From: a virus
IMG/VR virus record: IMGVR_UViG_3300050124_000011
Span: 1-37,808 of that record
Reading direction: 5' to 3' (one strand)
Length of the DNA stretch: 37,808 nucleotides
Part shown: in pieces, positions 1 to 37,235 of the stretch
How the letters are laid out: each line of letters opens with the position of its first letter
Numbering within the stretch: position 1 is the first letter of the stretch
Translations under genes and position numbers: made by a program
The notes under the pieces: generated by a model
Database searches by the model: none
Seen by the model: only the letters and a program-made list of their open reading frames with translations
What the model was told of the DNA's origin: nothing

Positions 1-311
1 GCCTTTACGGTCTGCGTGGTCGAAACTGTGATCGGCGTGGCGTAAGTGCTGGTCGTGCCGCCCGAGCAGAGGTTGGCTGATTCAGTGGGCGTAGTGCCAT
101 CTGTCGTATAGCAAAGGACCGCGAGAGAGGTCGCAGTGGAGATCGTCACCGTCTGCGTGGAGGTGTAGGTTCCCGCCGCGGGCGAGAAGGTGGGCGTGGC
201 TGCTGTGGAAGAACCGCCCATGCCCGCAGTAGCCGCTGTCCATTGGCCGATGGTGTACTGGCCGAAGGCAGGAGCCGCGAGAAGTCCGAGAATGAAAATT
301 AGTCTTTTCAT
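1..311 (-). CDS. Secreted chitobiase/HEX-C-domain protein, putative tail fibre (3' end outside window)
   Basis: This partial gene runs off the left edge, and 103 residues are visible. It starts with a Sec signal peptide: basic MKR, a hydrophobic stretch to about residue 15, and a likely cleavage after AFG (residue 17). Residues about 40-103 match the chitobiase/beta-hexosaminidase C-terminal-type module (CHB_HEX_C), with the signature SPAAGTYTS...QTVTIS and YTTDGTTPT. That family is a beta-sandwich found in secreted carbohydrate-active and surface proteins. The start codon overlaps the stop of the tail-fibre gene as ATGA and there is no clear Shine-Dalgarno site, so translational coupling is likely. 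A role in surface or glycan binding is inferred from the domain and the position. The visible part contains no catalytic domain. Confidence 0.75.
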   Translation of the reverse strand, partial: MKRLIFILGLLAAPAFGQYTIGQWTAATAGMGGSSTAATPTFSPAAGTYTSTQTVTISTATSLAVLCYTTDGTTPTESANLCSGGTTSTYATPITVSTTQTVK

Positions 312-3300
312 CGTGCCGTCACGTTAAAAGTAACCGCGCCCGGGGTTGAGATCGTTGTCGCAGTCTGGTTGCAAATCTTGTAATTCAAGTATCCTGCCGT
401 TGGCCACGTGTCTAAAATCAAGCCCCCCGTGCTTCCCCATCCCGTCGCGGCGCTGGTATCCGCGCTGGGTGTAATGACGAAAGTCATAGCGGTGGTGACG
501 CTGGCCATGGCCACCTGCACCGTACTGTTGCAGGTATTGGCCGAGACAGACCCAGTGCTGGTGGTAAAGGTTGTGGGAGCTATCTGGATCACCGCGCCTG
601 CCGCTGACGGTGTCGCTGCTGGGAGGTTCGCCGCTAGTACAAGCCCGCTCGTCAGCGTGAGGCAATCGCTTCCTGTTGTGCCTGCCGTGCAATTGGCTGG
701 GGTGTATGTCAATGCCGTCGTCACCTGCGAGGATGTCAATGTGCCGCCGTAGGTCTGTGCTGAGAACCATGTTGCAAGGTCAAGCGCAACGGGATCAATT
801 GCGCTTCCGGTCGGCTGCCAAGAGTAGACGAAATAATGGCCGGTGGTTGTGGGGCTAGCAATGAAGGCCGTAGTTCCCGCTGCGCTCTGGTAAGGCGCTG
901 AACCCACCGCGCCCCCCGCTGTGTTCGTAGCTGTGACTGCCGCTGTCGCGTTAGCGACTGCCGTGGTGCTTATTACCGCAACCACCTGAGCCGCTGATGC
1001 CGCTGCTGGAGCCGCACTGCCCGCCCAATACTCCAAGCCAGTGAACGGAGTCGTGCCGCTTACCGCTGTGCCAGTTGCCGCGTAGTAGGTTGGGCTCCAG
1101 GCCGTGCCGCTGTTGACGGTACCAGAGCCACTCCCGCTAGGCGTTGCCCATGTATTGTCGCCGCGTAGATAGGTAGTGGACCCAGGCGTACCCGTTGCCG
1201 CGAGATCGGCTATCGCAATCAGCGAGCTAGTCATTGCCGATTCGTTCACGCCGTCGCCTGTCGCCGGAGCCGCTGCGTGGAGGATGCCCGCCGTGATGGT
1301 CGCTGGCATCTTAAACACGTAGGCCGTTCCGCCTGTAACCGGGGCTGCGAATCCTGCGGAGTTTGCGGGGAGTGCAGGGATAATGCCCGTACCTGCTGGC
1401 AAACTCAATGCGGAGGGTGTCGTGCCGGTAAGCTGAACGCTCGTGAACGTGCCTGCTGCTGGAGTCGTTGCGCCAATGACCGTTCCGTCGATCGTGCCGC
1501 CCGTAATGGCTACAGAGGCGGGGTTGTAGGGATTGGCGACTGAGATCGCACCGCTGGAATTGCTGATCGTGGTCCCATCCGGCTTCACGCCGCCCAGGGT
1601 AGACGAGGTTGCTGTTGGCAGAGTATACGCTGATGGCACCGCGCCGCCGTCTATGATCGACGTGCCCGCAGTATTGCCCATCACGGCCAAATGACCTACC
1701 GTTGCTCCGCTACCGGGGCCCGTGACTGGATTGGTCAGTGTGGCTTGCTTGCCGTTCAACTGCGACTGAATGCTGCTCGTAGGGTCCACGTAACCCATCA
1801 CCGTGGGCGTCACGCCGTCCAGCGTCTTGTTGGTAAGCGTCTGCGTGTCTGTGGTGCCGACAATGGTTCCAGAGGGTGCTGTGAGCGATGTGCCCCAGGC
1901 TGAGCCGGTAGAAACGCCAATTCCCGTACCAGGGTAAGTCATGCTGCCGCTCGGCATACAACTACCGCCAGAACTGGTGAGGCATTTGAGTTGGTGCGCA
2001 GTAGAATCCAGATACAGACGGTCGTAGGTGGATGCTGGATTGGCCGGAGCCGCTATCTCCAGCGCGTCCTGAAAGCTGGTTCCCGCTCCGCCGTTGAAGC
2101 CTGTGCCGCTGCCGCCCCCAGAAACACAAGGTGATCCCGTATCTTCTAAGCTGCCTATCGTGTCCGCGAATTCAACGCAATCCCCTAGAGTAGTCGTTGG
2201 GGAATTCAACCCAGCAATAGCTTGAGGCATTCCACCATTACTGTACATCACCCAGCGGTTGCCGTAGGCGCTGGACGGCCATAGCCCGTAGTACCCCGAG
2301 CCGCAATCGCTACAGGGTTCTGAAAGCGTTCCTTGAGTGAAAAGCCCCCAATTAAGATTCACGCCATTAATGGGAGAAGGTCGAAAAGAAATAGGTGTTA
2401 TGCTATCAGTTACGTCAAGCACATCGAGAGTTCCAGCACTAGTAGCATTCGGCTCTAAACGCCAATCTTTTCCACCGCTAATTTTAACTGGAAAATCAAT
2501 GTAATCGGGGATGTGGGGCGTACTGATGGTCGGGCCTATGATGCCCCCTGAATTTATGGTTAATATGTTCGTCCGGGTACGGGGATTTGTACCCGCTGTT
2601 TCCGTGTCCACAGTAAAAGCTGAATCAGTAAACTCTTCGCATAATCCGGGTAATGTAATATCGTAAAGATTCACCGTTGAGCCAGACACCGCCTTGCCGT
2701 TAACGCAAAAATCCCATACGTTTCCCACATAGGGAGCCCCATAACTAAAGGCGAGCGTATAATCTGGGTCTTGCACGGTCGTGGTCGGTCCCGACGTGTT
2801 GATATAACATCCGTGAAGCCCTGCCGGTTCATAAATATCGCACAGTTGGCTGTCTACGAAAGTCCCTGAAGAATAAGCCCCACCGGGAAATCCCCAGCCG
2901 TCCATGATGTTGTCGTGAGTGTAAACATGGTAGCAAGTGGACGTGCAATCAAAAATCGTGCCATTCGATCCCTCAAAATCTACACTCTCCACGGTAAGGC
3001 CGAGAACACTTGTCAGGACAAATGCAGGATTTGAACCGCCAGCCACCGGAGCAATTGATCCTCCGTGAAAAGATATTGTCGCCTGCCCTGAATTATCTAT
3101 TACGCTTCCGATTTGATTCCCTATGAAGGTCTGAGTCGTGACTGGGAACGAATCCCCATTCCCCTGAATATTGACTGTGTTAAAAGTGTTACTCTCGTAT
3201 ACACCCTCGTAGCTTCCGATGTTGAGAACGCTCGGTGAGAAAATATAGAGGTCGTAACTGCCAGAAACAACATTAGTGACCACGCTTGTATTGTTATCTA

Positions 3301-4069
3301 GCTTGACATGAACGGACCCGTCTACGAAAATGCCTTTCGAGCTGGCAACTGAATTCATATCGAGGCCACAATTATCGACCTCAACCGCGTTGTTTGTATT
3401 CCCGACCGCGATATGAATGATACCCCCCCCACCATTTTTTAGAACAACCCCCGCCGCGCACTGAAGACTGACGCCGCTGGTTGTGATGTTAAAAAGATAG
3501 CCCCCAATCGGCCCCGTCATGTTATTTGTGACAACGTAAGTCCCCGGAGTTGAAAGGGTATTCGTTGATCCGCTCGTAAGAGGCCCGATGAGAACAGGTC
3601 CGACTGTCACGCTGCTCGGAAAAATCACGTTCTCGTTGACGATGTTCGTTGCCGCCCCTGCTGCTGTGGTTGCGCCCGTGCCACCCTGTGCGATTGTGCA
3701 GGCTCCGCTAACGCCGCATCCTGAACCGGTGGCGCCGATTGAAACAGCCTGATCAGCATAGGTCAGCGTCCCGGTGTATTGGCTCCAGTAAACTACCGTC
3801 ACGCACCCCGGTGCAGTATAGGCGTAAGCGTGACCAAACCCATCCGTGTATACAGGCTGCGAGATTGCGCCGCCGGTAGCGGTGGAATAAAGTTGTGCCT
3901 GCCCACTATAGGCAGTTCCACACGCAGATTGAGCGTAGACATTTACCTTTGCGCCTGCGATAGCCTGCCCTTGCGCGTTCTGAAGGCTAAAGTCCAAACG
4001 ACCATAGGTTTGGCAGAGGGCCAGCGGCGCTCCGATAAGAAACATGATTACCCAAATGAAACGCCGCAT
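308..4069 (-). CDS. Tail fibre/tail spike with N-terminal signal peptide and beta-helix
   Basis: The product has 1253 residues. The ATG at 4069 is chosen because AGGAGGG lies six bases upstream, and longer reading would run into the endonuclease gene. Residues 1-20 form a Sec-like signal (MRRF, then hydrophobic WVIMFLIGAPLAL, then CQ). Residues about 22-120 look like a transthyretin/carboxypeptidase-regulatory-like beta-sandwich with a TDGFGHAYAY turn, typical of phage fibre N-termini. GGTGATTAAGAATN near residue 130 is a common fibre repeat. Residues about 150-420 are rich in short beta-strands, like pectin-lyase beta-helices. The remaining 800 residues are Gly/Ala/Thr/Ser-rich fibre repeats. 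A receptor-binding or depolymerase role is inferred; I cannot see catalytic residues with certainty. Confidence 0.85.
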   Translation of the reverse strand: MRRFIWVIMFLIGAPLALCQTYGRLDFSLQNAQGQAIAGAKVNVYAQSACGTAYSGQAQLYSTATGGAISQPVYTDGFGHAYAYTAPGCVTVVYWSQYTGTLTYADQAVSIGATGSGCGVSGACTIAQGGTGATTAAGAATNIVNENVIFPSSVTVGPVLIGPLTSGSTNTLSTPGTYVVTNNMTGPIGGYLFNITTSGVSLQCAAGVVLKNGGGGIIHIAVGNTNNAVEVDNCGLDMNSVASSKGIFVDGSVHVKLDNNTSVVTNVVSGSYDLYIFSPSVLNIGSYEGVYESNTFNTVNIQGNGDSFPVTTQTFIGNQIGSVIDNSGQATISFHGGSIAPVAGGSNPAFVLTSVLGLTVESVDFEGSNGTIFDCTSTCYHVYTHDNIMDGWGFPGGAYSSGTFVDSQLCDIYEPAGLHGCYINTSGPTTTVQDPDYTLAFSYGAPYVGNVWDFCVNGKAVSGSTVNLYDITLPGLCEEFTDSAFTVDTETAGTNPRTRTNILTINSGGIIGPTISTPHIPDYIDFPVKISGGKDWRLEPNATSAGTLDVLDVTDSITPISFRPSPINGVNLNWGLFTQGTLSEPCSDCGSGYYGLWPSSAYGNRWVMYSNGGMPQAIAGLNSPTTTLGDCVEFADTIGSLEDTGSPCVSGGGSGTGFNGGAGTSFQDALEIAAPANPASTYDRLYLDSTAHQLKCLTSSGGSCMPSGSMTYPGTGIGVSTGSAWGTSLTAPSGTIVGTTDTQTLTNKTLDGVTPTVMGYVDPTSSIQSQLNGKQATLTNPVTGPGSGATVGHLAVMGNTAGTSIIDGGAVPSAYTLPTATSSTLGGVKPDGTTISNSSGAISVANPYNPASVAITGGTIDGTVIGATTPAAGTFTSVQLTGTTPSALSLPAGTGIIPALPANSAGFAAPVTGGTAYVFKMPATITAGILHAAAPATGDGVNESAMTSSLIAIADLAATGTPGSTTYLRGDNTWATPSGSGSGTVNSGTAWSPTYYAATGTAVSGTTPFTGLEYWAGSAAPAAASAAQVVAVISTTAVANATAAVTATNTAGGAVGSAPYQSAAGTTAFIASPTTTGHYFVYSWQPTGSAIDPVALDLATWFSAQTYGGTLTSSQVTTALTYTPANCTAGTTGSDCLTLTSGLVLAANLPAATPSAAGAVIQIAPTTFTTSTGSVSANTCNSTVQVAMASVTTAMTFVITPSADTSAATGWGSTGGLILDTWPTAGYLNYKICNQTATTISTPGAVTFNVTAR

Positions 4070-4077
4070 GATCCCTC

Positions 4078-4800
4078 CTAATACCTGTTCGTAGCGCCGC
4101 ATGAATGGCGCTTGCTTCGTTCTCTTGCGCAGAGCATTATGCCGCAACCATGGCAAGGTAGTTCCTTCCGCGGAGGGGCACCACGATTTATCTGTCTTAC
4201 AGCAGCAGCCCTTATCTTTGTCCGTGTTTCCTCAGAATGTCCGCGTTTATGGTGTCCCGCTGCATAAGCAGCCTTAAGGCTTTCTGATTGCTTCTGGCGT
4301 GTTTCTTTGGAGGCAATTCTTCCGCGTATAGCATCCGCTTGGCGTTGTCTCCATTGTTCGGTTCGAGGATGTCCCTTGCGCCCTGTCATCTTTGCTGAAT
4401 AATTCTCTTTGAATAAAGGGTTAGACCATTTCTCTTTCATCATCTCGCTATGGCGAAGGACCCATTCCGCTGATTGATGGTGAAGGCCGCGCTTACCTTT
4501 GTTATATGGGATGCGTCCAGACGGACCCTCGCCGCCATCAGTGAGATTGCGCAGGCAGCCTGTTTTCCTATCAATTCTTCCGTACAAGGAAATGAGCCTT
4601 TTTTCTTCCTCCCACGCTGAACATTCAGACAAATTTTCGGCAACAAAAATGATGAGGGACTTATCCTCAGGAGGTCGAACCCGATGATATTTACTGAACG
4701 CCCTCATCTTTTTCCCTTTGCCTACATAGTAGGGAGTTCCAACATTCCCATACTTTGATCTTTTCGCCCTCAAATACATGTACACATAGAAGTTATCCAT
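4078..4800 (-). CDS. Free-standing GIY-YIG homing endonuclease with NUMOD3 repeats
   Basis: The product has 240 residues. The GIY-YIG nuclease domain occupies residues 1-95, with YVY (5-7) and YYVGKG (24-29) as the two core strands, a catalytic-type Arg at 33, a Glu cluster at 64-66 and the NLTDGGEG loop at 85-92 seen in phage GIY-YIG enzymes. NUMOD3-type DNA-binding repeats follow at about 98-107, 138-162 and 184-202. A C-terminal CxxC-x4-C-x9-C cluster (C216, C219, C224, C234) probably binds zinc. Enzymes of this family nick or cut DNA to copy their own gene into new sites. It sits between two virion genes, and no intron or intein is visible around it. Its stop codon is nine bases ahead of the tail-fibre ATG. 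Confidence 0.88.
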   Translation of the reverse strand: MDNFYVYMYLRAKRSKYGNVGTPYYVGKGKKMRAFSKYHRVRPPEDKSLIIFVAENLSECSAWEEEKRLISLYGRIDRKTGCLRNLTDGGEGPSGRIPYNKGKRGLHHQSAEWVLRHSEMMKEKWSNPLFKENYSAKMTGRKGHPRTEQWRQRQADAIRGRIASKETRQKQSESLKAAYAAGHHKRGHSEETRTKIRAAAVRQINRGAPPRKELPCHGCGIMLCARERSKRHSCGATNRY

Positions 4801-4806
4801 ACGTAC

Positions 4807-4835
4807 ATTATAGCACTAGGCAAACAAAGTTACAA
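4807..4835 (-). promoter_or_regulatory. Promoter for the homing endonuclease gene
   Basis: On the minus strand there is TTGTAA, a 17-base spacer and a perfect TATAAT. The -10 ends six bases before the ATG at 4800, so the expected transcription start falls at or next to the ATG and the mRNA would be leaderless. No Shine-Dalgarno sequence is present. The promoter overlaps the last codons of the upstream virion gene. Confidence 0.6.
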
Positions 4836-5592
4836 CAAGCCCAGTAGTGCCATCGCCGCCGGTCATTGAGAGCACTTTCGCCCGCAAGAATTTTCCCATA
4901 ATGAATGAATATTCCGCGCCCGATTGTGTAACCGAGCTGCTGACAATCGTGGCCAGGTTTCCACTTGCGGCCACTACTGCTGTCGCCAGACATCCTTGCA
5001 CGTTCGCAAGGGTGTAGTATCGCGCATCCTGGTCAACGTTTGCCGCCTGAAGCACGACGACTGCGGCGCTGGGCAATGTTCCGCTCCAGACCGCTTCCGC
5101 AAAGAGGCAGCGTGAATTATCGGAATCATCAGGCGTGAAGGTCTGTGCTACCGGGATAGAGGCGGCGCCGGACGTGACAATGTCAGGATATTCATACGGC
5201 CACACGACGAGCGAACCATGAGCGACGGCAATCGAAAGGCTAGTCGTGTTCGCGTAGCTGATTGTCCCCGCGCCAGTTGAGTCAAGCGTGACTGCGGTAA
5301 CGATTGCCGGATCGGTGTTGAATCCAGTTTGCGTCAATCCGCGGACGCCCATCACGGCCCCAACTACGGGAATAGGCGCAACTCCGGTCACATAGTCAGT
5401 GCCGCCCCCGCCAGAGCGAAGGACGACAGTAGCTGTTCCGTGTGTGCCATCCCCGGCGATATGCGTTATATCGAACAGGAACGGCTCAGTGTGCGCGTCG
5501 AGATTACCAAACAGGTAGATCGGCGTAACACCGGTCTGCATCCGAAGCGTGTTCTTGTACGGTGGGCCAAATGCAGTAGTTTTGTAAAGCAT
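4816..5592 (-). CDS. Virion structural protein, beta-rich, function unknown
   Basis: The product has 258 residues, and its ATG follows AGGAGG at good spacing. The sequence is dominated by short Val/Thr/Gly/Ala beta-strands with few charged residues, typical of phage decoration, tail or fibre-base proteins. I recognise no named domain. A stretch near residues 140-225 (PVAQTFTPDDSDNSRCLFAEAV onward, read in parts) resembles a jelly-roll-like shell. It lies between the putative ejection proteins and the fibre module. That position makes a fibre-attachment or tail accessory protein plausible, but this is inference from position only. Confidence 0.65.
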   Translation of the reverse strand: MLYKTTAFGPPYKNTLRMQTGVTPIYLFGNLDAHTEPFLFDITHIAGDGTHGTATVVLRSGGGGTDYVTGVAPIPVVGAVMGVRGLTQTGFNTDPAIVTAVTLDSTGAGTISYANTTSLSIAVAHGSLVVWPYEYPDIVTSGAASIPVAQTFTPDDSDNSRCLFAEAVWSGTLPSAAVVVLQAANVDQDARYYTLANVQGCLATAVVAASGNLATIVSSSVTQSGAEYSFIMGKFLRAKVLSMTGGDGTTGLVVTLFA

Positions 5593-8821: not shown

Positions 8822-9351
8822 TATCCCCCCCCTCCTGCTGCCGCTGCCTGTTCCGCATTTTTCTGCATTTGCATATAAATCTGCCAGCCGGGGGTAATTT
8901 GATTAGCGGCATCCAAATCCTTTGCTTGCACCCCAGCCTCACCCGTTTGGGCAGCCGTGTTCATGCCATAAAGTTTGCTTAGATCGCCCGCAGCTGTGGA
9001 TTGCTGATTGAGCTTCACGTCAGCATTGTTGGCGGCAATTTTCTCGCCCACCATCGCATTGCCTTTATCGCGCTGTTGTGCAGCGGCATCGAGGGCGCCG
9101 GAGAATCCCTTTGGGTTGCGTGTATCTGCGCCCATCTTTCCCACAGCGCCAGTCAATCCAGCCGTAGCGCCACCCGTACCAGCCAAACCCGCCGTCACCT
9201 GTGCGCCAACGTCACGCTGGCTCATGCCTTGCGGATTGTCCATTTGCCGGGTTAAAAAGGGGGTAAGATTGGCATTTATGCTACCGGCAGTTGAGCCGTA
9301 TCCAGCTGCTGCCTGCCCTGCTGTATTGGCTGCTACTTGAGAATCACGCAC
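8821..9351 (-). CDS. Putative small internal virion protein, Ala/Gly-rich
   Basis: The product has 176 residues starting at a GTG, which overlaps the preceding gene's stop by eight bases. Ala, Gly, Gln and Asn dominate, with repeated AGLTGAVGKMG-like segments and a C-terminal Ala/Gly tail. The pattern (residues about 40-110, DNPQGMSQRDV and NPKGFSGALDAAAQQRDKG) resembles gp14/gp7-type internal proteins of podoviruses, which form part of the ejection conduit. No enzyme motif is visible. It is probably co-translated with the GNAT-like gene before it. Confidence 0.65.
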   Translation of the reverse strand: MRDSQVAANTAGQAAAGYGSTAGSINANLTPFLTRQMDNPQGMSQRDVGAQVTAGLAGTGGATAGLTGAVGKMGADTRNPKGFSGALDAAAQQRDKGNAMVGEKIAANNADVKLNQQSTAAGDLSKLYGMNTAAQTGEAGVQAKDLDAANQITPGWQIYMQMQKNAEQAAAAGGGG

Positions 9352-9745
9352 GAGTCGCCACCGTCCAAGGGGACCAGCCGGAGCGGTTTTTGCTCCACCC
9401 CAACTGATTCAACCGTTTCTGGAAGCGCCGCTCTACGGTCTCAGGTATGCGGGCCTCAATATCATCTAATCCGTTTTGCCATGCCGCGCGGAGAACTTCC
9501 GGCTGCATCTCATTCATCACATCAACTTTATCACGAGGGGATGCGTCCGGTTTCAGCCAGAGATAGGTCTCTGCTGTGATGCGCAGAAAACACGCGCCAA
9601 TTACCGCCCCATTATCGTCGATCGTAACCTTCCGCACCAAAAAAAGAGGGTGATTTAGCTCAGGTAATGCATAATCCATGCCCATCGCGGCGTGAATCTG
9701 CTCAATTTCTGCGAAATCCTCCGGTTTTGCGTCTCGCACCATCAT
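9344..9745 (-). CDS. GNAT-fold acetyltransferase-like phage protein (T7 gp13-like)
   Basis: The product has 133 residues. The order RDAKPEDFAEIEQIHAAMG (residues 4-22), then NHPLFLVRKVTID, then GAVIGACFLRITAETYLWL is the beta-alpha-beta start and central strands of the GNAT fold. Small GNAT-like proteins of about this length occur beside the internal virion proteins of podoviruses, for example the gp13 family of T7-like phages. The typical acetyl-CoA pyrophosphate loop (Q/RxxGxG/A) is not clear, so it may be a structural rather than catalytic version. Its ATG overlaps the upstream stop as ATGA. Confidence 0.7.
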   Translation of the reverse strand: MMVRDAKPEDFAEIEQIHAAMGMDYALPELNHPLFLVRKVTIDDNGAVIGACFLRITAETYLWLKPDASPRDKVDVMNEMQPEVLRAAWQNGLDDIEARIPETVERRFQKRLNQLGWSKNRSGWSPWTVATRA

Positions 9746-18579: not shown

Positions 18580-19029
18580 CTAACTAACCCCCAATTTGAA
18601 GTGGCACTTCTCGATCAGTTTGAGATCGAAAACGCTGCAAAGGGTGAATGTGCCCTCATCTAGTTCAATGTCTTCAGTATTGAACCCGCTGAATGTCACT
18701 ATGTCGCCAGGAACTACTAATTCTTTCATAGGAAAGGACTTTCCTTCCACGATGTAGAACTTGGCAGTTGTCACAACAACACCCCGGTTTGCCGACTTGC
18801 GCGCGGATTCTGGAATGAAGAAACTGGTTCCGGCAAAGGTGGTTGCCTCTGCATTGCGCCGGATGAGCACGCGGTCGAAGATAGGCAGCGGATCATCGTA
18901 GACGCGATCAATATCAACGAGGGATAGCTCCGGCTCTAAAACAAGCGTCTGCGCTTCCTCACTGGCAGGTTCAGTGTCCAGTTTTGTTCGCCGGTCAATT
19001 ACTTCCATCGGTTCATGTTGCTTTGACAT
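18580..19029 (-). CDS. Phage-encoded GroES-like co-chaperonin (Cpn10)
   Basis: The product has 149 residues, with AGGAGACC before the ATG. Residues about 48-140 align along their length with GroES: PIFDRVLIRRN matches PLHDRVIVKRK; the segment AGTSFFIP falls where the GroES mobile loop contacts GroEL; ANRGVVVTTAKFYIVEG matches the conserved RGEVLAVG strand; VVPGDIVTF matches VKVGDIVIF; DEGTFTLCSVFDLKLIE matches the C-terminal strand. A 45-residue acidic N-terminal extension is not in GroES (97 residues). T4 gp31 is the known precedent: it replaces GroES so that the host GroEL can fold the phage capsid protein. This gene lies immediately downstream of the capsid gene. Confidence 0.82.
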   Translation of the reverse strand: MSKQHEPMEVIDRRTKLDTEPASEEAQTLVLEPELSLVDIDRVYDDPLPIFDRVLIRRNAEATTFAGTSFFIPESARKSANRGVVVTTAKFYIVEGKSFPMKELVVPGDIVTFSGFNTEDIELDEGTFTLCSVFDLKLIEKCHFKLGVS

Positions 19030-19088: not shown

Positions 19089-20456
19089 CTAGATAGTTGG
19101 GCTGCTGGCGCCGTAAACATACAACTGATGTCTCGGCGCACTACAGGCCATGTTGAAGGACAGTTCATAGGCAAACTGATTGGTGGTCAGCCAGCCATTG
19201 TTTGAAGGATCGGGAACCGGCATGGTCGTGTTGCCGCCGCCGAAATCGTACAGTTGCAGCGGAACCAACTCGCCGAGATACCAGTCGGCAGTGAGCAGCA
19301 TGTCGATGCGGCCAAGAGGCTGGACATAGCTAAGATGCACATCCCGGCCACCAAAGGTGCCCTGGAAATACTTCTTGCTCACATCCGGCACTTTGCCGGT
19401 ATTCCCTTCATTTGAGGACTGTTGCAAGACGATCTGCTTGTTATAGTAGTTCGTCTGCGCAACTGCGAAAGCCTGGTCCTCGCCAAAGAGGTAGATGCCG
19501 GAATCCTTGGTCTTATTGGAGCCGCCCATCGCGCGTCCGAGCAATGCTTCGATGCGCTGAGAGAGGCTTGCGGTTACAGCGCCCCCGTTCAGGTTGATCG
19601 ACGGCGAAGAAACGCGGCTGGGGTAGGTGGCGCGGTTGACGCCGGCCTGGTACCCGGAGGTTGCCGAGTTGATCCAAGCAGTTGTGCCGTAGATTCCTTC
19701 ACCGGTAACGCCCGAAGAGCCGGCGATCATGATATAGTCGCCCGCTAGAACGGTCGTTGCGAGAGAGGTTCCATTGGTGAGAGTGCTGGAGTTTGCAGCC
19801 AGTCCCCCAAGAAAGTAGAGCGTGGACGTCACTGGGTCATTCACGCTGATAGTGGCATACCCGCGTACAGTTCCGCCCTCGCTGGGGAAGAACTGCACCA
19901 CCTGGTTATCCGTGAAAGCCATCGCACGCACACCGGTGATGGAACCGGGGCCGGTGGTGACGATGGTAGCTGTGGTGGGGATCTGCGTGATGGCGCCCGA
20001 AGAGTCGCCATACATCAGACCTTCGATACCAGCCATGGCGCTGTCGAGTGAATTCTTCAACTCTTCAGCTTTCAAGGAAATAAGCCCGCGTTTCTTGCCG
20101 TTGGTGGCAAGCTGCGAAAGGTGGGTTACCTCGTTGACGGCATAGTGCCAAAGGGGCGAGAGAGTGAAGTCCTGCCACACGGACGAGTTGCCGCGTCCAA
20201 GAGAGTTGCCGTCGCCGGTGCCCTGGGAGATATAAGCGCCACCCTGGACACGGAACGGAACGCGGAAGGAAGGACGGGCCACGGAACTTTGGCCGCCGAC
20301 AGCGCCCGCGAGGGTTTGAAAGGATACAGGAATCTTGGTAAAGCGTTCCTGTGCAAGCGAATAGAGCGTCTTGCTCATGGGGATGAGCGATGGGATTGTG
20401 GTTGCAAACGCTTCTACTTCTACGGATTCTACGGCTGCTTCTGTGCCGAGTGCCAT
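19089..20456 (-). CDS. Major capsid protein
   Basis: The product has 455 residues. The ATG at 20456 is preferred because GGGAG lies seven bases upstream. A helical N-arm (IPMSKTLYSLAQERFTKIPV) precedes a Gly-rich loop at about residue 75-95, a long spine-like helical region (KAEELKNSLDSAMAGIEGLM) and a beta-rich C-terminal half, as in HK97-fold capsid proteins. Position supports this: it follows portal and a Gln/Asp-rich scaffold candidate, and precedes a co-chaperonin. It probably has its own promoter and a structured leader (see 20621-20629 and 20571-20599). Confidence 0.85.
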   Translation of the reverse strand: MALGTEAAVESVEVEAFATTIPSLIPMSKTLYSLAQERFTKIPVSFQTLAGAVGGQSSVARPSFRVPFRVQGGAYISQGTGDGNSLGRGNSSVWQDFTLSPLWHYAVNEVTHLSQLATNGKKRGLISLKAEELKNSLDSAMAGIEGLMYGDSSGAITQIPTTATIVTTGPGSITGVRAMAFTDNQVVQFFPSEGGTVRGYATISVNDPVTSTLYFLGGLAANSSTLTNGTSLATTVLAGDYIMIAGSSGVTGEGIYGTTAWINSATSGYQAGVNRATYPSRVSSPSINLNGGAVTASLSQRIEALLGRAMGGSNKTKDSGIYLFGEDQAFAVAQTNYYNKQIVLQQSSNEGNTGKVPDVSKKYFQGTFGGRDVHLSYVQPLGRIDMLLTADWYLGELVPLQLYDFGGGNTTMPVPDPSNNGWLTTNQFAYELSFNMACSAPRHQLYVYGASSPTI

Positions 20457-20570
20457 GTGAATTCTCCCAAACGGCACAATTGCGCGCCGTCAGTTGACGT
20501 GTTACGGTCTCTACGTCTGGAGAATCTTCCTATATGGCCGACACTTTTTACCGAGGCGTGACCTCGACGA

Positions 20571-20633: not shown

Positions 20634-21914
20634 TCAACGCCAATTCACGAAATGCCCTGATTTGGTCCAGCCGCGCCCCTTAATGAAGTTCAATTGCGCG
20701 GTATCCGCATCTGGCTTATTCCAATCGATCTGTGCATCGGGCGGCTGGGCAGTGATTTTGAGAGGCCCACCGCCGGGAGCCGTCTTAGGCTCGCCAGGTT
20801 TGACTATACCAGTGCCATTCTGCGCGGCTCCGCCCTTAGGCGCTCCGTAAATGCTCTTCGCTACCTCGAATGCCTTATCTTTGGCTCGCCGGTTGAATTC
20901 CGCTGCAGCATAGCTGGATACCGTATCGTGGGTACGGCTCTTGTTGGAATAACGCAGGTCGATCTGCTGTCGATACGTTTGATCGGCGTTCATTTCCTCA
21001 ATTACAGCGTTTTCGAGGGTCGTCTTGTAATGCGCCTTCTGAACATCGTTAAGCTTGTACTGCTTGGCGTATTGATCGACTACCTGAGCGACCGGCTGGC
21101 TGATGGCGGCATTGGTTTTGGCTGCGACCGCATCGCGGAAAATCTTCTCTTCGCGTGTATTCAGTTCCGTCTCGCGCTGCTTTATCTTGTCAGCGCCCGG
21201 ATTCTGGGTAGTGCGGGCCTGCTGAACCTGTTTCGCATTGGCTGCCTGCCCCTTGAACCAGTCGGCAATCTCTTTTACCAGCGCTTTGGAACGCGCCTCA
21301 TCCGGTTCCGCCAGTGCAGCGTCTAGGAAGCGCCCCAAACCAGCATTTTCGAGCATTGCCACGGCATGAGGTCCAACTGCCTCGTTATAGGCAGTCTGGT
21401 TCGTCTGCGAGAGTTTGTCCAGGTAGTGCGGCGCCAGCGCTGCAGCACCTTCGGGAAAATCCTTAAACATTGCGTCCAGGACTTCAGGATTGCCCTCTTT
21501 GAGAGCTGCGTCTTGCTGGTCGTATGTCTGGAGCCGTTGTGTGGCCTGAGTGATGCCCTCCACTCCGCCAGCAGCCTCAATCAACTGCTTAGCCGTAGTA
21601 GCCTCTTGTGGCGTCTTGAAGGAACTCTGGTAGCCTGTCGCAACCCGAAAATGGGTGTCCGCAAGTTGCTTGAGCAGCTTCGCGTCTTCAGGAGAGGTCG
21701 CGGAAAGCCTACGCACCGCATCACGGATGGCTTTGCCGGTTAATGCTTCCGGCGGCTGCTGCTGGCCCTCAACGCCTGTCTGCTGCTGTTGACTTTCTTG
21801 ATTCTCAGGCGAAATTTCTATGTTTTGCCCCGCATCGACACCGGAATCCTGTCCAGTATCCTGCGTTGCATCAGTTGCTTCGAGTGAGGCGAAATCTACT
21901 GCTGAATCAGCCAT
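20634..21914 (-). CDS. Putative scaffolding protein
   Basis: The product has 426 residues. The ATG at 21914 is chosen because AGGAGA is six bases upstream and because the longer form would overlap the phosphatase gene by over 100 bases. The first 80 residues are Asp/Gln/Ser/Glu-rich and probably disordered. Long amphipathic helices follow, with coiled-coil character at about 220-330 (RETELNTREEKIFRDAVAAK). The C-terminus carries Gly/Pro/Lys-rich sequence. Highly charged helical proteins between portal and capsid genes are typically scaffolds that shape the procapsid. No sequence motif proves it. Confidence 0.75.
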   Translation of the reverse strand: MADSAVDFASLEATDATQDTGQDSGVDAGQNIEISPENQESQQQQTGVEGQQQPPEALTGKAIRDAVRRLSATSPEDAKLLKQLADTHFRVATGYQSSFKTPQEATTAKQLIEAAGGVEGITQATQRLQTYDQQDAALKEGNPEVLDAMFKDFPEGAAALAPHYLDKLSQTNQTAYNEAVGPHAVAMLENAGLGRFLDAALAEPDEARSKALVKEIADWFKGQAANAKQVQQARTTQNPGADKIKQRETELNTREEKIFRDAVAAKTNAAISQPVAQVVDQYAKQYKLNDVQKAHYKTTLENAVIEEMNADQTYRQQIDLRYSNKSRTHDTVSSYAAAEFNRRAKDKAFEVAKSIYGAPKGGAAQNGTGIVKPGEPKTAPGGGPLKITAQPPDAQIDWNKPDADTAQLNFIKGRGWTKSGHFVNWR

Positions 21915-21924
21915 TAATGGTCTC

Positions 21925-22545
21925 CTAGGATCCGCCGAAAACCGCTTCTTCGACATTTCCGAAGATCGGCTCGATTCGGTGTTGTTTTCCGTTGAAGTAA
22001 ATTGCGGCCACTCCCCCAGGCTTGACGCTATCGCCAAACTCAGGCTCTATATCGTGAGCGCCTTCCGTGAAGTTCACCAGTGCTGTGACATTGCTGGTAT
22101 GCGCGATGTAGACAGTCAACCCGCCATCATGCGCCATTTCAAGGGATGCTTGCCAGAAAGCAAATTGCCGCTCTTCAAAATCATTTAGCGACTCTCCTTC
22201 TGGCATACAAACCTCTGGATTACTGACAAACAGGCGTAACGCGTCCCCGTTCTCATCTTTTGGCAGGCCAGTAAAGATGCCTAGCCGCCAGGGGAATAGC
22301 CCGCGATGCTGAAAGACCTGTAATTTGTGCGGCCCGGCGATAATATCGGCAGTAATAAAGGCGCGGAGCAAGGGCGAAGAGATTATATGTTTGATCGGCT
22401 CTTTGCTCAGGAATTTAGCCGCTGCTCGAGCCTGCACTAGCCCTTTATCGTTCAAGGGCGGATCTGACCATGAGCGATATCGCCCATCGGCGTTTGTCGT
22501 CGTCTCGCCGTGCCTTACGAGATAGCCCACGATCCGGTCTTTCAT
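21925..22545 (-). CDS. Histidine phosphatase-family (phosphoglycerate mutase-like) protein
   Basis: The product has 206 residues. It carries the family signature LVRHGET (R11, H12, G13, E14; H12 would be the phosphorylated residue), SSPLLRAFITADII (R61 in the conserved position) and a late His in YIAHTSNV (H149). These make the phosphate pocket of the family. Where many members have a general-acid Glu in an LxExxxG motif, this one has LFPWRLG (83-89), so the acid is not obvious. The ATG overlaps the portal stop as ATGA, and the scaffold gene follows within ten bases, so it belongs to the head operon. Its substrate is unknown. Confidence 0.85.
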   Translation of the reverse strand: MKDRIVGYLVRHGETTTNADGRYRSWSDPPLNDKGLVQARAAAKFLSKEPIKHIISSPLLRAFITADIIAGPHKLQVFQHRGLFPWRLGIFTGLPKDENGDALRLFVSNPEVCMPEGESLNDFEERQFAFWQASLEMAHDGGLTVYIAHTSNVTALVNFTEGAHDIEPEFGDSVKPGGVAAIYFNGKQHRIEPIFGNVEEAVFGGS

Positions 22546-25019
22546 AAGCGCCGTTTCGTCCTCGTTTTTAGTTCCATCATCGGCGTGCGTTGAATTGTTT
22601 CCGTCTCCTGCTCGTCGGGCTGATTGGCAGCTTGTAGGTCGCTCTGTATCCCTGCTGCCTGTTGAAGCAGTTGTGCCTGCTGTTGCGGCGTAAGTTTACC
22701 CGTCATGCTCAACTTCGGCGGCGGTGCCTGGGCCTTGCTGAGTTTGCCGGCCATATCTTTATGACCCTTCCAGTAAAGAAAGACATTCTGCCACTTCTTC
22801 CAGTTCTCGCCCTCTGGAGGCTCTTTCTCAGACTTGCGCCGAAGTGAACGGCCATCCGACTCGCCCATCCAGCTAAAGACCGTAGCCGAAATTGTGGCGT
22901 GATCCTCAGATTCATCCTCAGCAACCGGTACGCTGGGCAGATACTGCGGAACTTGCTCAAGTTGCTTCTGGAGCGCGGCTACTTGTTGCTCGAGCTGTTC
23001 GCCCTGCTGTAATTCTTCTTCGGCCAGCATTTCTCCGGATTGCACAGCTGTACTGGCAAGCTCCTTAGCCTGCTCATGCGTCTCATTCAATTGGGTTAAC
23101 TGGTCTGTGAGTTTTTGCCAGTCGGGATTGATAAGCGGCTCGGAATCCAGCAACCGCTCAATATCTTCAAGCGCCCCGTCTTCCCAGTTGGCTTCATCCA
23201 CGGTGATAATATCGTCGAGTGACAAAGCCTTGACGATTTCGCGCGTATTGGATGGACGGGCGACTACGGCAGCAACTTCCTGATTCTGCATGGCCATGTC
23301 CAGCACTTGCAATACCTTGGCTTCGCGTTGAGCTCCACTCTCCGGGATAGCATTGATGTTTTCGGGGCGGCATTTCGCGTTGCCTTTCAAATTCTCAGGA
23401 TTTACCGTCACATCGCCATATCCGGGGACGGTATCGCTGATTTCTCCAGTCCCGTTCTCTGCGCAACACTTGGCCGCCTGCCGAATTGCCGTTGAAAACA
23501 TCATATTTGCCACAATCCATGCGGCGCCAAGCCGTTCGAGCGCTTGCTGCAAACGAATCTGAGTAGCGCCAACCGTATTATCCGAACCTTCTCCTGAACC
23601 GAATAGCGCCGGCGTGCAACCATCGATTGATTGAATCAGAGGCCCGACATACCACTGGAACATCTCGTACATGCCCGGCTGTGGAGTGGGAACAGGCGTT
23701 TGCGTCACTAAATCGGTAATTGGCCGCCCTTCTGGCACAGCCACAAACTCGAAGCGGCCAGGGCTGGCTTGCAACTGCGCCTGTGCTTCCGCGTTGAATG
23801 CCTGGTCGTCCATCACGGTCACGCTAATGGCTGTGCGTACAAACTTGTCCCAAAGGTCTGCCCAGATGTTGATGCGCTTTTGGATGGGAATATCTGAAGA
23901 GCCAAGCGCGCGCCGGTTCTGACCAAATCCGCGGCAGAACATGCCCAGCGCCAGATGGTCGTCCATGCTCTCAGTCCAAGCGCAGGTTAATTCCTTGCCG
24001 TGAAGGATGCAAAACACGCCTTCGGGGAATTCTTTCAGGAGCCATTCGCGCTGGGGCGGGGTGATTTTGTCATCAAAGTACATTCCAGATCTAAACCACA
24101 TATATCCGACAGTTGACTCACGGATTCCCGAAGTCCCCGTAATGTACTTTCCAACAATTCCGATTCTTGTATTGATTCGGGCAATGCGTTCAAATTCCAA
24201 CTCACCTGCTGTCCCCCATGACGGCTTGATCTTATCACCCATCCAGGGGTATTTGGCTCGTTCGATTGCATAGTCGCTCTCCTCAAAAACTTGAAAGTAG
24301 CTCATTTCATTGAGCCGGTCATTCATCATGGGCGCTTTAGTTTCCAGCACGCCATGCAGACTTGTAATCTCTCGCGTCCGGATAGATCCATCCTCATTCA
24401 GCCCGAACGCTTTATCGGCTACCGTGCGCGTCCAGAAAACGCCGCGGGGATCAGTCCATGCAAGGCCCGCCGTTGAGCGCTGGAGCGAAATTGAGTCATT
24501 CGTCTCATACCATAAGTGCTTGTATTTATTGGATTCATCCGCACATGCCACGTCTATCGGATTCTTGCTCTTGTTGGGCGTGAAGTTGACCTTGATCTGT
24601 CCGCGACAGAGAGCCGATGTGCTGATATCGCCTTGAGCACTCAGAATATTGGTTGCGTACAGATTGGCGTCATTCGTCTCTGCCAGGCCGTTCTTGTTCT
24701 TGCCTGCATCAGCGCCAATGATGTTCCAGCCGCCATTCTGGCCGCCCTCAAGATACTGGTAGCCGCGGTCCATGTGCCGCTCTTCCCATACTTGGAGTAC
24801 AGAGAAGCGCCGTGCAGCCTCATCCGCCTGCGAACACGATTCAGCTAAAGTTATGAAAACATTGACTAATGTGGGATCAACCGCCTCAATGTCCTTGGGT
24901 TTCCAGACCTTCGCGCTGGTGATGATCGACGGCGCTAGCTCACCAGGGGCATACTCCTGGGCCGCCTGCCCGGTCTCGCCCTCATCACCAGTCGGAGGAT
25001 TCTGGACTTCAGTTGCCAC
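22542..25019 (-). CDS. Portal protein, P22-type
   Basis: The product has 825 residues, beginning with a GTG that has GAGG six bases upstream. A helical N-terminal clip/wing region (ADEAARRFSVLQVWEERHMD at residues about 59-78) is followed by mixed alpha/beta sequence with many Trp and Tyr. A helical hub at about 460-540 carries GSGEGSDNTVGATQIRLQQA. The long C-terminal helical segment at about 640-690 (repeated Gln/Glu/Leu) resembles the barrel of P22-like portals. P22 portal is about 725 residues. The gene order terminase-portal-scaffold-capsid supports the call. The product would be the dodecameric DNA channel at one capsid vertex. Confidence 0.8.
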   Translation of the reverse strand: MATEVQNPPTGDEGETGQAAQEYAPGELAPSIITSAKVWKPKDIEAVDPTLVNVFITLAESCSQADEAARRFSVLQVWEERHMDRGYQYLEGGQNGGWNIIGADAGKNKNGLAETNDANLYATNILSAQGDISTSALCRGQIKVNFTPNKSKNPIDVACADESNKYKHLWYETNDSISLQRSTAGLAWTDPRGVFWTRTVADKAFGLNEDGSIRTREITSLHGVLETKAPMMNDRLNEMSYFQVFEESDYAIERAKYPWMGDKIKPSWGTAGELEFERIARINTRIGIVGKYITGTSGIRESTVGYMWFRSGMYFDDKITPPQREWLLKEFPEGVFCILHGKELTCAWTESMDDHLALGMFCRGFGQNRRALGSSDIPIQKRINIWADLWDKFVRTAISVTVMDDQAFNAEAQAQLQASPGRFEFVAVPEGRPITDLVTQTPVPTPQPGMYEMFQWYVGPLIQSIDGCTPALFGSGEGSDNTVGATQIRLQQALERLGAAWIVANMMFSTAIRQAAKCCAENGTGEISDTVPGYGDVTVNPENLKGNAKCRPENINAIPESGAQREAKVLQVLDMAMQNQEVAAVVARPSNTREIVKALSLDDIITVDEANWEDGALEDIERLLDSEPLINPDWQKLTDQLTQLNETHEQAKELASTAVQSGEMLAEEELQQGEQLEQQVAALQKQLEQVPQYLPSVPVAEDESEDHATISATVFSWMGESDGRSLRRKSEKEPPEGENWKKWQNVFLYWKGHKDMAGKLSKAQAPPPKLSMTGKLTPQQQAQLLQQAAGIQSDLQAANQPDEQETETIQRTPMMELKTRTKRRL

Positions 25020-26512: not shown

Positions 26513-28126
26513 TCACCTAATATTAGATTTCCAACTCGGCGGCATAAACTGCCGCTTCGGCTTCTTCTTCGCCATCGTATGCTTGAACGCCATCATCATG
26601 CGCTCGACCGGCTCGGCAGCGTCCATGTTTTCAGAATATACCTCTTCCGCGCTCTTCTTGCGTGGACTCAACATGGATTTTAGCAAATAGCGCCCCGCAT
26701 CGCCTAAATCCTGCTCAATCTTCGCCGTGCTCAAGTCCGTCTTCAACACATCGTCAAGGTTCTTGGGGTCGCGCACCAGCGCCGGGATGGCGTTCAACCA
26801 CTCCGGACATTCACTCGATACCAGCACCGCATCATCGTACTGGAAGCGGTTGCCATCCTTATCCACGCCCCAACCTTTACCCTTGGTTGCCTTGAACAGC
26901 GCGCCCATCATGCCGTATCCGCCCTTACGGTCATTGTCAGCCTTGATCGCGCCGGGCAGCCCATTCAGCTTCAGCCGGCGTGATTCTTGTGATCCAATCG
27001 AATTCGGATCGTCCGTAACCTCTTCCGGAGAGAGGAAGAAGGCTTTATGCTTGGGCCGCTCACTAACCGGCGTAGAATCAGCAATATCCTGTGCCACATC
27101 TGGCGCCTCCTTCTCGTTGATAATCATCTCGCGGTATAGCACCGTTACATTGATCTGCCGCTCTAAGTCCCAATCCAAGAACTGTTTAGCCTCGCTCGGC
27201 TTGAGCGCGATACGGTATGCCCACAACGTCACGCACCAGTGAGCCTTGCCCCAATCCTGCGCGAACCAGTGTGTTGCCCATGGCTTACGCATCTGCTCTA
27301 CCAGGTCAGGGTTGATACGCACAGACTCCAGATCGAAGCTGTTGGCGAAGTAGGCACCCTCCAGCGAATCCCAGTCGCCCTCCCAGTCCGCCTTGCGTAT
27401 TACTTCATCGTCAGTTGCGAGCTGGCGCGTATACGGGCCACGCGTAGATGCATACGCCTTGCGCTGCTCATCTGTCCACGAGTAGTAATCCTTGACGCTG
27501 TATCCATCATCCTTGAGCGACGCGCGCACCCATTCCACGTTATCCCATGGGTTCATCTTCAGGAACGCGTAATCAGCAGGGTCTTCATCGCGGTTAACTT
27601 CATGTAAATGGAACCATTTACGCAACTCTTGAATGCTGGCGCCGCGCATATTGAAGATCAGCACCGTCTTGGCAGCATGACCCGTAGTTGACCGGCAAGC
27701 CTTGCGCATCTCGCGGATCTCGCGGCCAGAGAATTGCTCGGCCTGGTCAATCACCAGAAGATCGTAGTTACCTGAGCGGAACGCCTCAATCACACTGTCA
27801 TAGTTCTCCGCATATTTGAAGTCTAAGCGCGACTTACCAATGCGCAACATGGCCGGCGGCGAGGCCTTCAATCCTTTTTCGACCCATGGGAAATCTCTGC
27901 GTATAGGCTCTAAATGGAATGGCACCAACTGCTTAACCCAGGTGCGCATAATGAGGCACGCAGTCAGGCCAGGCCACTCGTGCATGAGCGTAATCAGGCA
28001 ACGATCGGCGCCTGAGCTCTTAGCAGAGCCGCGGCCACCACCAGCGCCGATGACTACAGCGCGCGATGTCTTGATGAGTTTAAGTAGTGCGGATTGTTTA
28101 GGTTGCAGTCGTACTTTAACGTCCAT
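26513..28126 (-). CDS. terL: Terminase large subunit (TerL)
   Basis: The product has 537 residues from the ATG at 28126. A glycine-rich Walker A lies at residues 28-38 (GAGGGRGSAKSS). The Walker B strand YDLLVIDQAEQF is at 121-132, with Asp-Gln where Asp-Glu is usual. TVLIFNMRG (about 153-161) is the coupling segment. A C-terminal RNase H-like nuclease follows: FAQDWG near residue 285 supplies the first Asp, and FQYDDAVLV, SSECPEWL and DPKNLDD supply later acidic positions. The enzyme pumps DNA into procapsids and cuts it. The start overlaps the end of the 30-residue membrane peptide gene, so coupling is likely. Confidence 0.9.
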   Translation of the reverse strand: MDVKVRLQPKQSALLKLIKTSRAVVIGAGGGRGSAKSSGADRCLITLMHEWPGLTACLIMRTWVKQLVPFHLEPIRRDFPWVEKGLKASPPAMLRIGKSRLDFKYAENYDSVIEAFRSGNYDLLVIDQAEQFSGREIREMRKACRSTTGHAAKTVLIFNMRGASIQELRKWFHLHEVNRDEDPADYAFLKMNPWDNVEWVRASLKDDGYSVKDYYSWTDEQRKAYASTRGPYTRQLATDDEVIRKADWEGDWDSLEGAYFANSFDLESVRINPDLVEQMRKPWATHWFAQDWGKAHWCVTLWAYRIALKPSEAKQFLDWDLERQINVTVLYREMIINEKEAPDVAQDIADSTPVSERPKHKAFFLSPEEVTDDPNSIGSQESRRLKLNGLPGAIKADNDRKGGYGMMGALFKATKGKGWGVDKDGNRFQYDDAVLVSSECPEWLNAIPALVRDPKNLDDVLKTDLSTAKIEQDLGDAGRYLLKSMLSPRKKSAEEVYSENMDAAEPVERMMMAFKHTMAKKKPKRQFMPPSWKSNIR

Positions 28127-28208
28127 CGTGTGCTGTATCTCTACTAAGCCAGAACCACACAACCACCAGAACAATAACAATTACCGTGCTGCCAATCAGA
28201 CTAAGCAT
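28116..28208 (-). CDS. 30-residue single-pass membrane peptide between terminase genes
   Basis: The ATG at 28208 has GGAGAG nine bases upstream and starts five bases after the small terminase stop. The 30-residue product is one strongly hydrophobic helix (IGSTVIVIVLVVVWFWL, residues 5-21) with a charged tail, SRDTAHDGR. The reading frame ends eleven bases inside the large terminase gene. It may be a small membrane protein, such as a holin-like or anchoring peptide, or a leader that couples translation of terL. Its size prevents firm assignment. Confidence 0.55.
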   Translation of the reverse strand: MLSLIGSTVIVIVLVVVWFWLSRDTAHDGR

Positions 28209-36639: not shown

Positions 36640-36906
36640 ATGATGGAGTATCCGATACCGAAACGCTGGATAATATTGTATGCCCGCGCCTGCGATCCTG
36701 ACGATGTGAAATACTCAGCCGAGACGTGCACTATCCTCGAAGAACTTGGCATAGCCGAGGGCCGGGTTGCCGAACTGGAGGCCGATAATGCGCGGCTTAA
36801 GGCTCCGGTAAGCGATGAGGAGATGGCTTCTATTTGGTTTCACGGCAGGAAAGATTTCTTCGCGCAGGTTATCGCATCCCGTACAACGATGAAGGAGCAG
36901 AAATGA
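36640..36906 (+). CDS. Coiled-coil-containing early protein
   Basis: The product has 88 residues. GGAGGCGAA precedes the ATG at 36640. The middle (GRVAELEADNARLK, residues about 40-53) is a short leucine-heptad helix; the ends are polar and aromatic (IWFHGRKDFFAQVI). It may dimerise. The ribosome site is an exact copy of the one before the 36395 gene. No family recognised. Confidence 0.55.
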   Translation: MMEYPIPKRWIILYARACDPDDVKYSAETCTILEELGIAEGRVAELEADNARLKAPVSDEEMASIWFHGRKDFFAQVIASRTTMKEQK

Positions 36907-37235
36907 CCAAACTCAGCATTATCGTTTTACTTACCGCAATCTGTTTTCTAGTGGGATGCCCACGGCCACCTCAACCTGCGGCTTTACATCCTGTGGGCGC
37001 GGCTGACTGCCATCCTACAGAAGCAGCGGCAACCATCGTAGACGACTCCAAACCTGTGCAACCGGAAGATCTTAAGCCTTGGTGGATGACACACAGCGCC
37101 CACTGCCCCGACAATATGCGTAGGGTAGAGCCCAGCATCAGAGAGTCGAATGCCAAGACCACGATGTTAGCTAGTTCTGACGACTGGATGAACTGGCGAA
37201 TTCAGCACACATACTGCATACCGGATGGGATGTGA
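36903..37235 (+). CDS. Phage-encoded lipoprotein with DWMN motif
   Basis: The product has 110 residues, with an ATGA overlap. The N-terminus is a lipoprotein signal: MTK, hydrophobic LSIIVLLTAICF, then lipobox L16-V17-G18-C19. The mature part is polar and Pro-rich, with C36 and C68, and ends with DDWMNWRIQHTYC (93-105), matching the membrane-anchored product of 36395 (DWMNFVIQHHC), then stops five residues later. It lacks the W.CD.G end of its relative. A function at the cell envelope, such as superinfection exclusion, is possible but not shown. Confidence 0.65.
   Translation: MTKLSIIVLLTAICFLVGCPRPPQPAALHPVGAADCHPTEAAATIVDDSKPVQPEDLKPWWMTHSAHCPDNMRRVEPSIRESNAKTTMLASSDDWMNWRIQHTYCIPDGM

Follow-up and report, generated by a model that had tools for sequence, protein, structure and literature searches.

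A predicted Sec signal precedes the P22-type docking domain of a tailspike in a probable acidobacterial phage

The stretch of DNA analysed here (the window; 37,808 bases, the whole of an IMG/VR virus record) encodes a tailspike whose P22-type docking domain follows a predicted signal peptide, and the gene coupled to it encodes a second product that also begins with a predicted signal. Export of the spikes is strongly supported. The signals, the domain, synteny, the clade of signal-bearing relatives, glutamine at position +1 and cysteine parity can all be read from sequence. We lean slightly towards an account in which the spikes are exported by Sec, cleaved, oxidised in the periplasm and then docked onto virions, either at lysis or later; the cleavage, disulfides, docking and timing in this account are steps that we infer.

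Two coupled genes begin with predicted export signals

Sec signals with a signal peptidase I (SPI) site were called using a rule-based scorer, which picks up 11 signals in a set of 12 textbook examples from E. coli. The spike precursor begins MRRFIWVIMFLIGAPLALCQTYGRLDF and carries, by this scorer, a tripartite signal with a positive n-region, a hydrophobic h-region and an AxA-type site; the predicted cut falls between MRRFIWVIMFLIGAPLALC and QTYGRLDF, at ALC/Q. The second product begins MKRLIFILGLLAAPAFGQYTIG, with a predicted cut between MKRLIFILGLLAAPAFG and QYTIG. The original prediction of Sec signals on both products was borne out, with scores of 11.05 for the spike (reached by 6 of 500 shuffles) and 12.45 for the second product (reached by 0 of 500). 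Across the 40 window open reading frames of at least 80 aa, signals were called only in these two genes and in a lipoprotein-like gene at 36903–37235.

Both start sites were also found as proposed (Table 1): AGGAGGG lies ahead of the spike ATG, where it overlaps the stop codon of the upstream endonuclease-like ORF (4080–4078), and an ATGA overlap joins the spike stop to the start of the second gene. A wrong start for the spike was rejected, as the ribosome-binding site is strong and the sequence upstream of MRRF, for which conservation was sought in the homologues L005 and L006, is not conserved. We also rejected the spike as a lipoprotein (SPII substrate): the lipobox [LVI][AST][GAS]C is not matched by the L-A-L-C of the window, which has Leu at −1, and conservation of this cysteine does not extend to L005, L006, L026 or L077.

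Table 1 Features of the window, in window coordinates.
Feature	Position	Strand	Remarks
Second signal-bearing gene	1..311	(-)	Cut by left window end, 103 aa visible; CHB_HEX_C_1 / Fn3_assoc domain
Predicted signal peptide of second gene, MKRLIFILGLLAAPAFG	261..311	(-)	Cut before Q18
ATGA overlap, spike stop/second gene start	308..311	(-)	Couples both genes
Tailspike/fibre gene	308..4069	(-)	1253 aa; predicted Sec signal and head-binding domain, followed by a body rich in Cys (22 in the mature form)
P22-type tailspike head-binding (virion-docking) domain	3731..4012	(-)	Residues 20-113
Predicted Sec/SPI signal peptide of spike, MRRFIWVIMFLIGAPLALC	4013..4069	(-)	Cut before Q20
Shine-Dalgarno AGGAGGG	4073..4079	(-)	Ahead of spike ATG at 4069
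Homing-endonuclease-like ORF	4078..4800	(-)	phrog_314 match, 2e-8
Signal-less gene	4816..5592	(-)	258 aa; directly upstream of spike or docking-domain gene in syntenic relatives examined
Capsid	19089-20477		Podovirus-type late gene, from size, order and resemblance
Scaffold	20634-22037		Podovirus-type late gene, from size, order and resemblance
Portal	22542-25019		Podovirus-type late gene, from size, order and resemblance
Terminase	26513-28180		Podovirus-type late gene, from size, order and resemblance

The domain behind the spike signal has the fold of P22-type head-binding domains

An AF2 model of the docking domain had a pLDDT above 90 across most of residues 1–94. The only matches in a PDB profile search were the head-binding domains of the Pan3 and Pam1 tailspikes, with weak E values (0.011 and 0.11), and structural alignment gave Z scores of 9.5 for Pan3, 8.4 for Pam1 and 8.1–8.4 for P22 head-binding domains; by the same approach the fold is also common to CnaB and transthyretin-like extracellular domains. 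The domain aligned in register with P22 gp9, with a score of 18.9 versus a maximum of 15.6 among 100 shuffles, and its matches in a viral library were the N-termini of pectate-lyase-type phage spikes. The window protein shares with P22-type tailspikes (P22 gp9, Sf6 gp14, Pam1 and Pan3) the head-binding fold, a long spike body and the position of the spike gene. P22 gp9, however, lacks a signal peptide, whereas the window docking domain is preceded by a Sec signal and has gained a pair of cysteines (mature positions 31 and 70). Residues 130–480 of the spike body gave a single-sequence model with a pLDDT of 35, and the spike matched no Pfam beta-helix family; the sole relative found for residues 130–720 is the near-identical L078 contig.

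The second product does contain the CHB_HEX_C domain assigned to it from the sequence (CHB_HEX_C_1, PF13290; 44.5 bits, cut-off 22). Its relatives are ORF17 of the cultured phage Tunturi_1 (64% identity across 72 aa), L019 and L068, and it is probably an exported, glycan-binding protein of the spike cassette.

The signal is a part added to the docking domain

In profile searches, the domain behind the signal turned up at 16 loci in viruses and in three MAGs of Acidobacteria. The signal-bearing docking domains (window, L005, L006, L026 and L077) form one clade with support of 97/96; L026 was reached without bias, through its neighbouring 258-aa gene, and is signal-bearing too. The signals of these five, including MRFFLIFALSATLAHA in L005 and MKKILALLLFAAPLAA in L006, are dissimilar in sequence and keep the signal type. 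Distant relatives of the docking domain (L007–L019) are signal-less, and in alignments their start Met (MAIARDDRWL..) falls at the mature Gln1 of the window protein (QTYGRLDF..) or no more than one residue away from it. The original prediction raised the question of whether the signal is kept beside the same domain; it is present in this clade and absent in the distant relatives. Judged by these alignments, the signal is a part added to the docking domain.

The loci fall into three architectures. In the split form (I), to which most of the relatives outside the signal-bearing clade belong, the docking-domain gene has no signal and is coupled to a Cys-rich spike gene that has one; among the 15 viral loci that were informative, the rule called a signal on the next gene in 13, and in the exceptions (L066 and L067) that gene looks signal-bearing by eye. 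The form that is fused with a signal (II) is found in the window, the near-identical contig L004, L005, L006, L026 and L077, and the form fused without a signal (III) in L012, L016, L018, L075 and L076. Loci resembling the split form are held by a Granulicella MAG (L021) and an Acidobacteria MAG (L022), and the gene order in the former (GNAT-like, small, 258-like, docking gene) resembles that of the window by eye; an acidobacterial host is therefore probable for this soil phage.

Over 3 kb upstream of the spike gene, L004 matches the window exactly. The two differ at only two positions in the first 878 spike residues and then diverge abruptly at residue 879 (window 308–1435; L004 10635–13300) into completely different C-termini. 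This is likely to be an exchange of tips, the pattern that swapping of the receptor-binding end would be expected to leave. In several signal-bearing spikes (L057 7561, L019 8576, L068 7515, L070 7522 and L005 657), a motif that resembles Q-x-[IV]-[ND]-P-x-x-Q-I-x-W-P stands directly behind the cleavage site and is a candidate docking peptide.

Glutamine at +1 and paired cysteines accompany the signals

We assembled a non-redundant set of 42 signal-bearing spike-type genes. AxA-Gln occurred at residues 12–30 in 39 of them; control stretches gave 6 of 42 and 8 of 42. On the host side, sampled in one Granulicella MAG (318 kb; L032–L047), AxA-Gln was found in 18 of 34 signal-called proteins, compared with 2 of 34 in the control and 13 of 194 other proteins, which suggests that at least one acidobacterium has a preference akin to the Q-rule, with Gln directly following the signal peptide. 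The Q-rule as published concerns Bacteroidetes and does not name Acidobacteriota (PMC5837995), and Q-rule signals are known in P. gingivalis phages (PMC10367356). There, as here, cleavage at the predicted SPI site would leave Gln at the new N-terminus, in line with exported proteins of the host; the Q-rule genes of Bacteroidetes phages are of unknown function, whereas those described here encode acidobacterial phage tailspikes.

The median Cys content of the mature proteins was about 1.9–2.0%, versus 0.56% in signal-less fibres (p about 5e-7) and 0.54% in other virion proteins (p about 1e-7), an enrichment of about 3.5-fold for which the p values are a guide only, as the sequences are related. 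The Cys count was even in 28 of 33 complete mature proteins (p=3e-5, which overstates the independence of related sequences). Docking domains have two or four cysteines in the exported form and mostly one in the signal-less form; P22 gp9 has 8 Cys without export. A high and even number of cysteines would be as in disulfide-bonded exported proteins.

Cultured phages carry similar gene blocks

The podoviruses Tunturi_1 and Tunturi_2 (PP887698 and PP885685; host Tunturiibacter) were described in a paper whose main text is silent on signal peptides (PMC11924767). In Tunturi_1, ORF12, 13, 14, 16 and 17 are signal-bearing spike-type genes in one block (ORF14 when counted from a start internal to the annotated one), and among them are the gene annotated as tail spike and one for a virion structural protein; Tunturi_2 has the same block by gene order. 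Tunturi_1, and by gene order Tunturi_2, resembles the window in this block of signal-bearing, Cys-rich spike-type genes; a docking domain of the window type was found in neither. The same rule called no signals in the tested fibre and tail genes of Tunturi_3, Tunturi_4, crAss001 and P22, and we therefore rejected the idea that the trait is general to phages of Bacteroidota or to all phages of Acidobacteriota. A tblastn search of isolated phages returned no relatives of the spike, the second product, the MCP or the portal.

Where exported spikes would act

In the account towards which we lean, the ribosome would make signal, head-binding domain and spike as one Sec precursor, the translocon would export it and SPI would cut at ALC/Q, leaving as the new N-terminus the free edge of the P22-type head-binding domain. 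The spike would fold in the periplasm, where its paired cysteines would form disulfides, and would dock onto spike-less virions at or after lysis, once the compartments mix; the coupled gene would add another exported protein of the spike cassette. This course of events would accommodate every observation. A difficulty is that in the split form the docking domain would be cytoplasmic and the spike exported, so that both must meet after lysis. P22 tailspikes are known to bind in vitro to particles that lack them. The common view is that tailed phages complete their particles in the cytoplasm, and we found no tailed-phage precedent for assembly outside it and no virion or supernatant proteomics of these phages; nor did we find a report of Sec signals on tailed-phage spikes, a weak negative, as the search covered open-access papers only. 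Secreted endolysins (fOg44 Lys44, Ms6 LysA with Gp1 and the SAR endolysins; reviewed in PMC6116005) are likewise late phage proteins that use host Sec, but they are lysis enzymes, whereas here the signal sits on receptor-binding, virion-type proteins.

It is possible, if less likely, that the spikes are exported and cleaved but act off the virion as soluble depolymerases, lectin-like coats or decoys, which might clear or mask surface glycans, prevent superinfection or shield the progeny against debris. Any exported protein could have such signals, +1 Gln and cysteines, and such roles fit the CHB_HEX_C domain of the second product, the annotation of Tunturi_2 ORF14 as a pectin lyase and the presence of three or four such genes consecutively in some phages. 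The window spike, however, retains a virion-docking domain, which would be of little use to a soluble protein, and the genes are coupled to the docking gene and lie where spike genes are placed. The domain is present as a single copy in each of the seven viral records that have it and no further spike-type gene that could serve as a replacement was recognised in the window, which together favour use on the virion; since the domain follows the predicted cut, assembly outside the cytoplasm is also favoured above a role that is solely soluble.

The original prediction had offered two uses for the hydrophobic N-termini, export or anchoring in the tail. Export is favoured by tripartite but unconserved signals, AxA-Gln, even and enriched cysteines and a signal-less sister form. 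An uncleaved N-terminus serving as a tail-anchoring virion segment is unlikely: the segment does immediately precede the docking domain, but signal-less relatives have that domain without it, its sequence is not conserved, and the AxA-Q sites and even cysteines would be left unexplained. Short hydrophobic stretches can arise by chance, but it is very improbable that both signals are accidents, or the result of misplaced starts, in ordinary fibre genes with cytoplasmic products, given their recurrence in 42 genes with a fixed +1 Gln, the strong ribosome-binding site and coupled start, and the absence of calls in the fibre and tail genes tested in Tunturi_3, Tunturi_4, crAss001 and P22.

In our judgement it is evenly balanced whether, in many tailed phages of Acidobacteriota, the receptor-binding spikes reach their mature form outside the cytoplasm, by Sec export, periplasmic disulfide formation and docking only at or after lysis. 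If so, the site of spike folding changes and disulfide-stabilised spikes become possible; the spikes would form a common pool, open to exchange, which might coat the dying cell as well, co-infecting phages could share them, and they could act on the host surface before lysis. Maturation of spikes outside the cytoplasm would be very unusual in a tailed phage; the signal-bearing arrangement recurs across many related phages. Cultured carriers exist (Tunturi_1, and Tunturi_2 by gene order), so the idea is directly testable, and the match of +1 Gln to host preference offers a sequence handle for spotting exported phage proteins.

Genome context

The product of the signal-less 258-aa gene is possibly a docking platform. 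In the window, the homing-endonuclease-like ORF is an insert that separates this gene from the spike gene, and it is absent at loci L005, L006 and L026. Elsewhere in the window, a GroES-like gene (18580–19029, (-); Cpn10, 4e-9) adjoins the capsid gene, and a histidine-phosphatase/phosphoglycerate-mutase-like gene (21925–22545, (-)) has the portal on one side and the scaffold on the other. A GNAT-like gene (by eye; 9344–9745, (-)) lies within the virion module; its position is kept in L005, L006, L026 and the Granulicella MAG locus, and an annotated acetyltransferase is in the matching position in Tunturi_1 and Tunturi_3. The small lipoprotein-like gene (36903–37235, (+)) lies in the early region, and its product contains MTKLSIIVLLTAICFLVGC.
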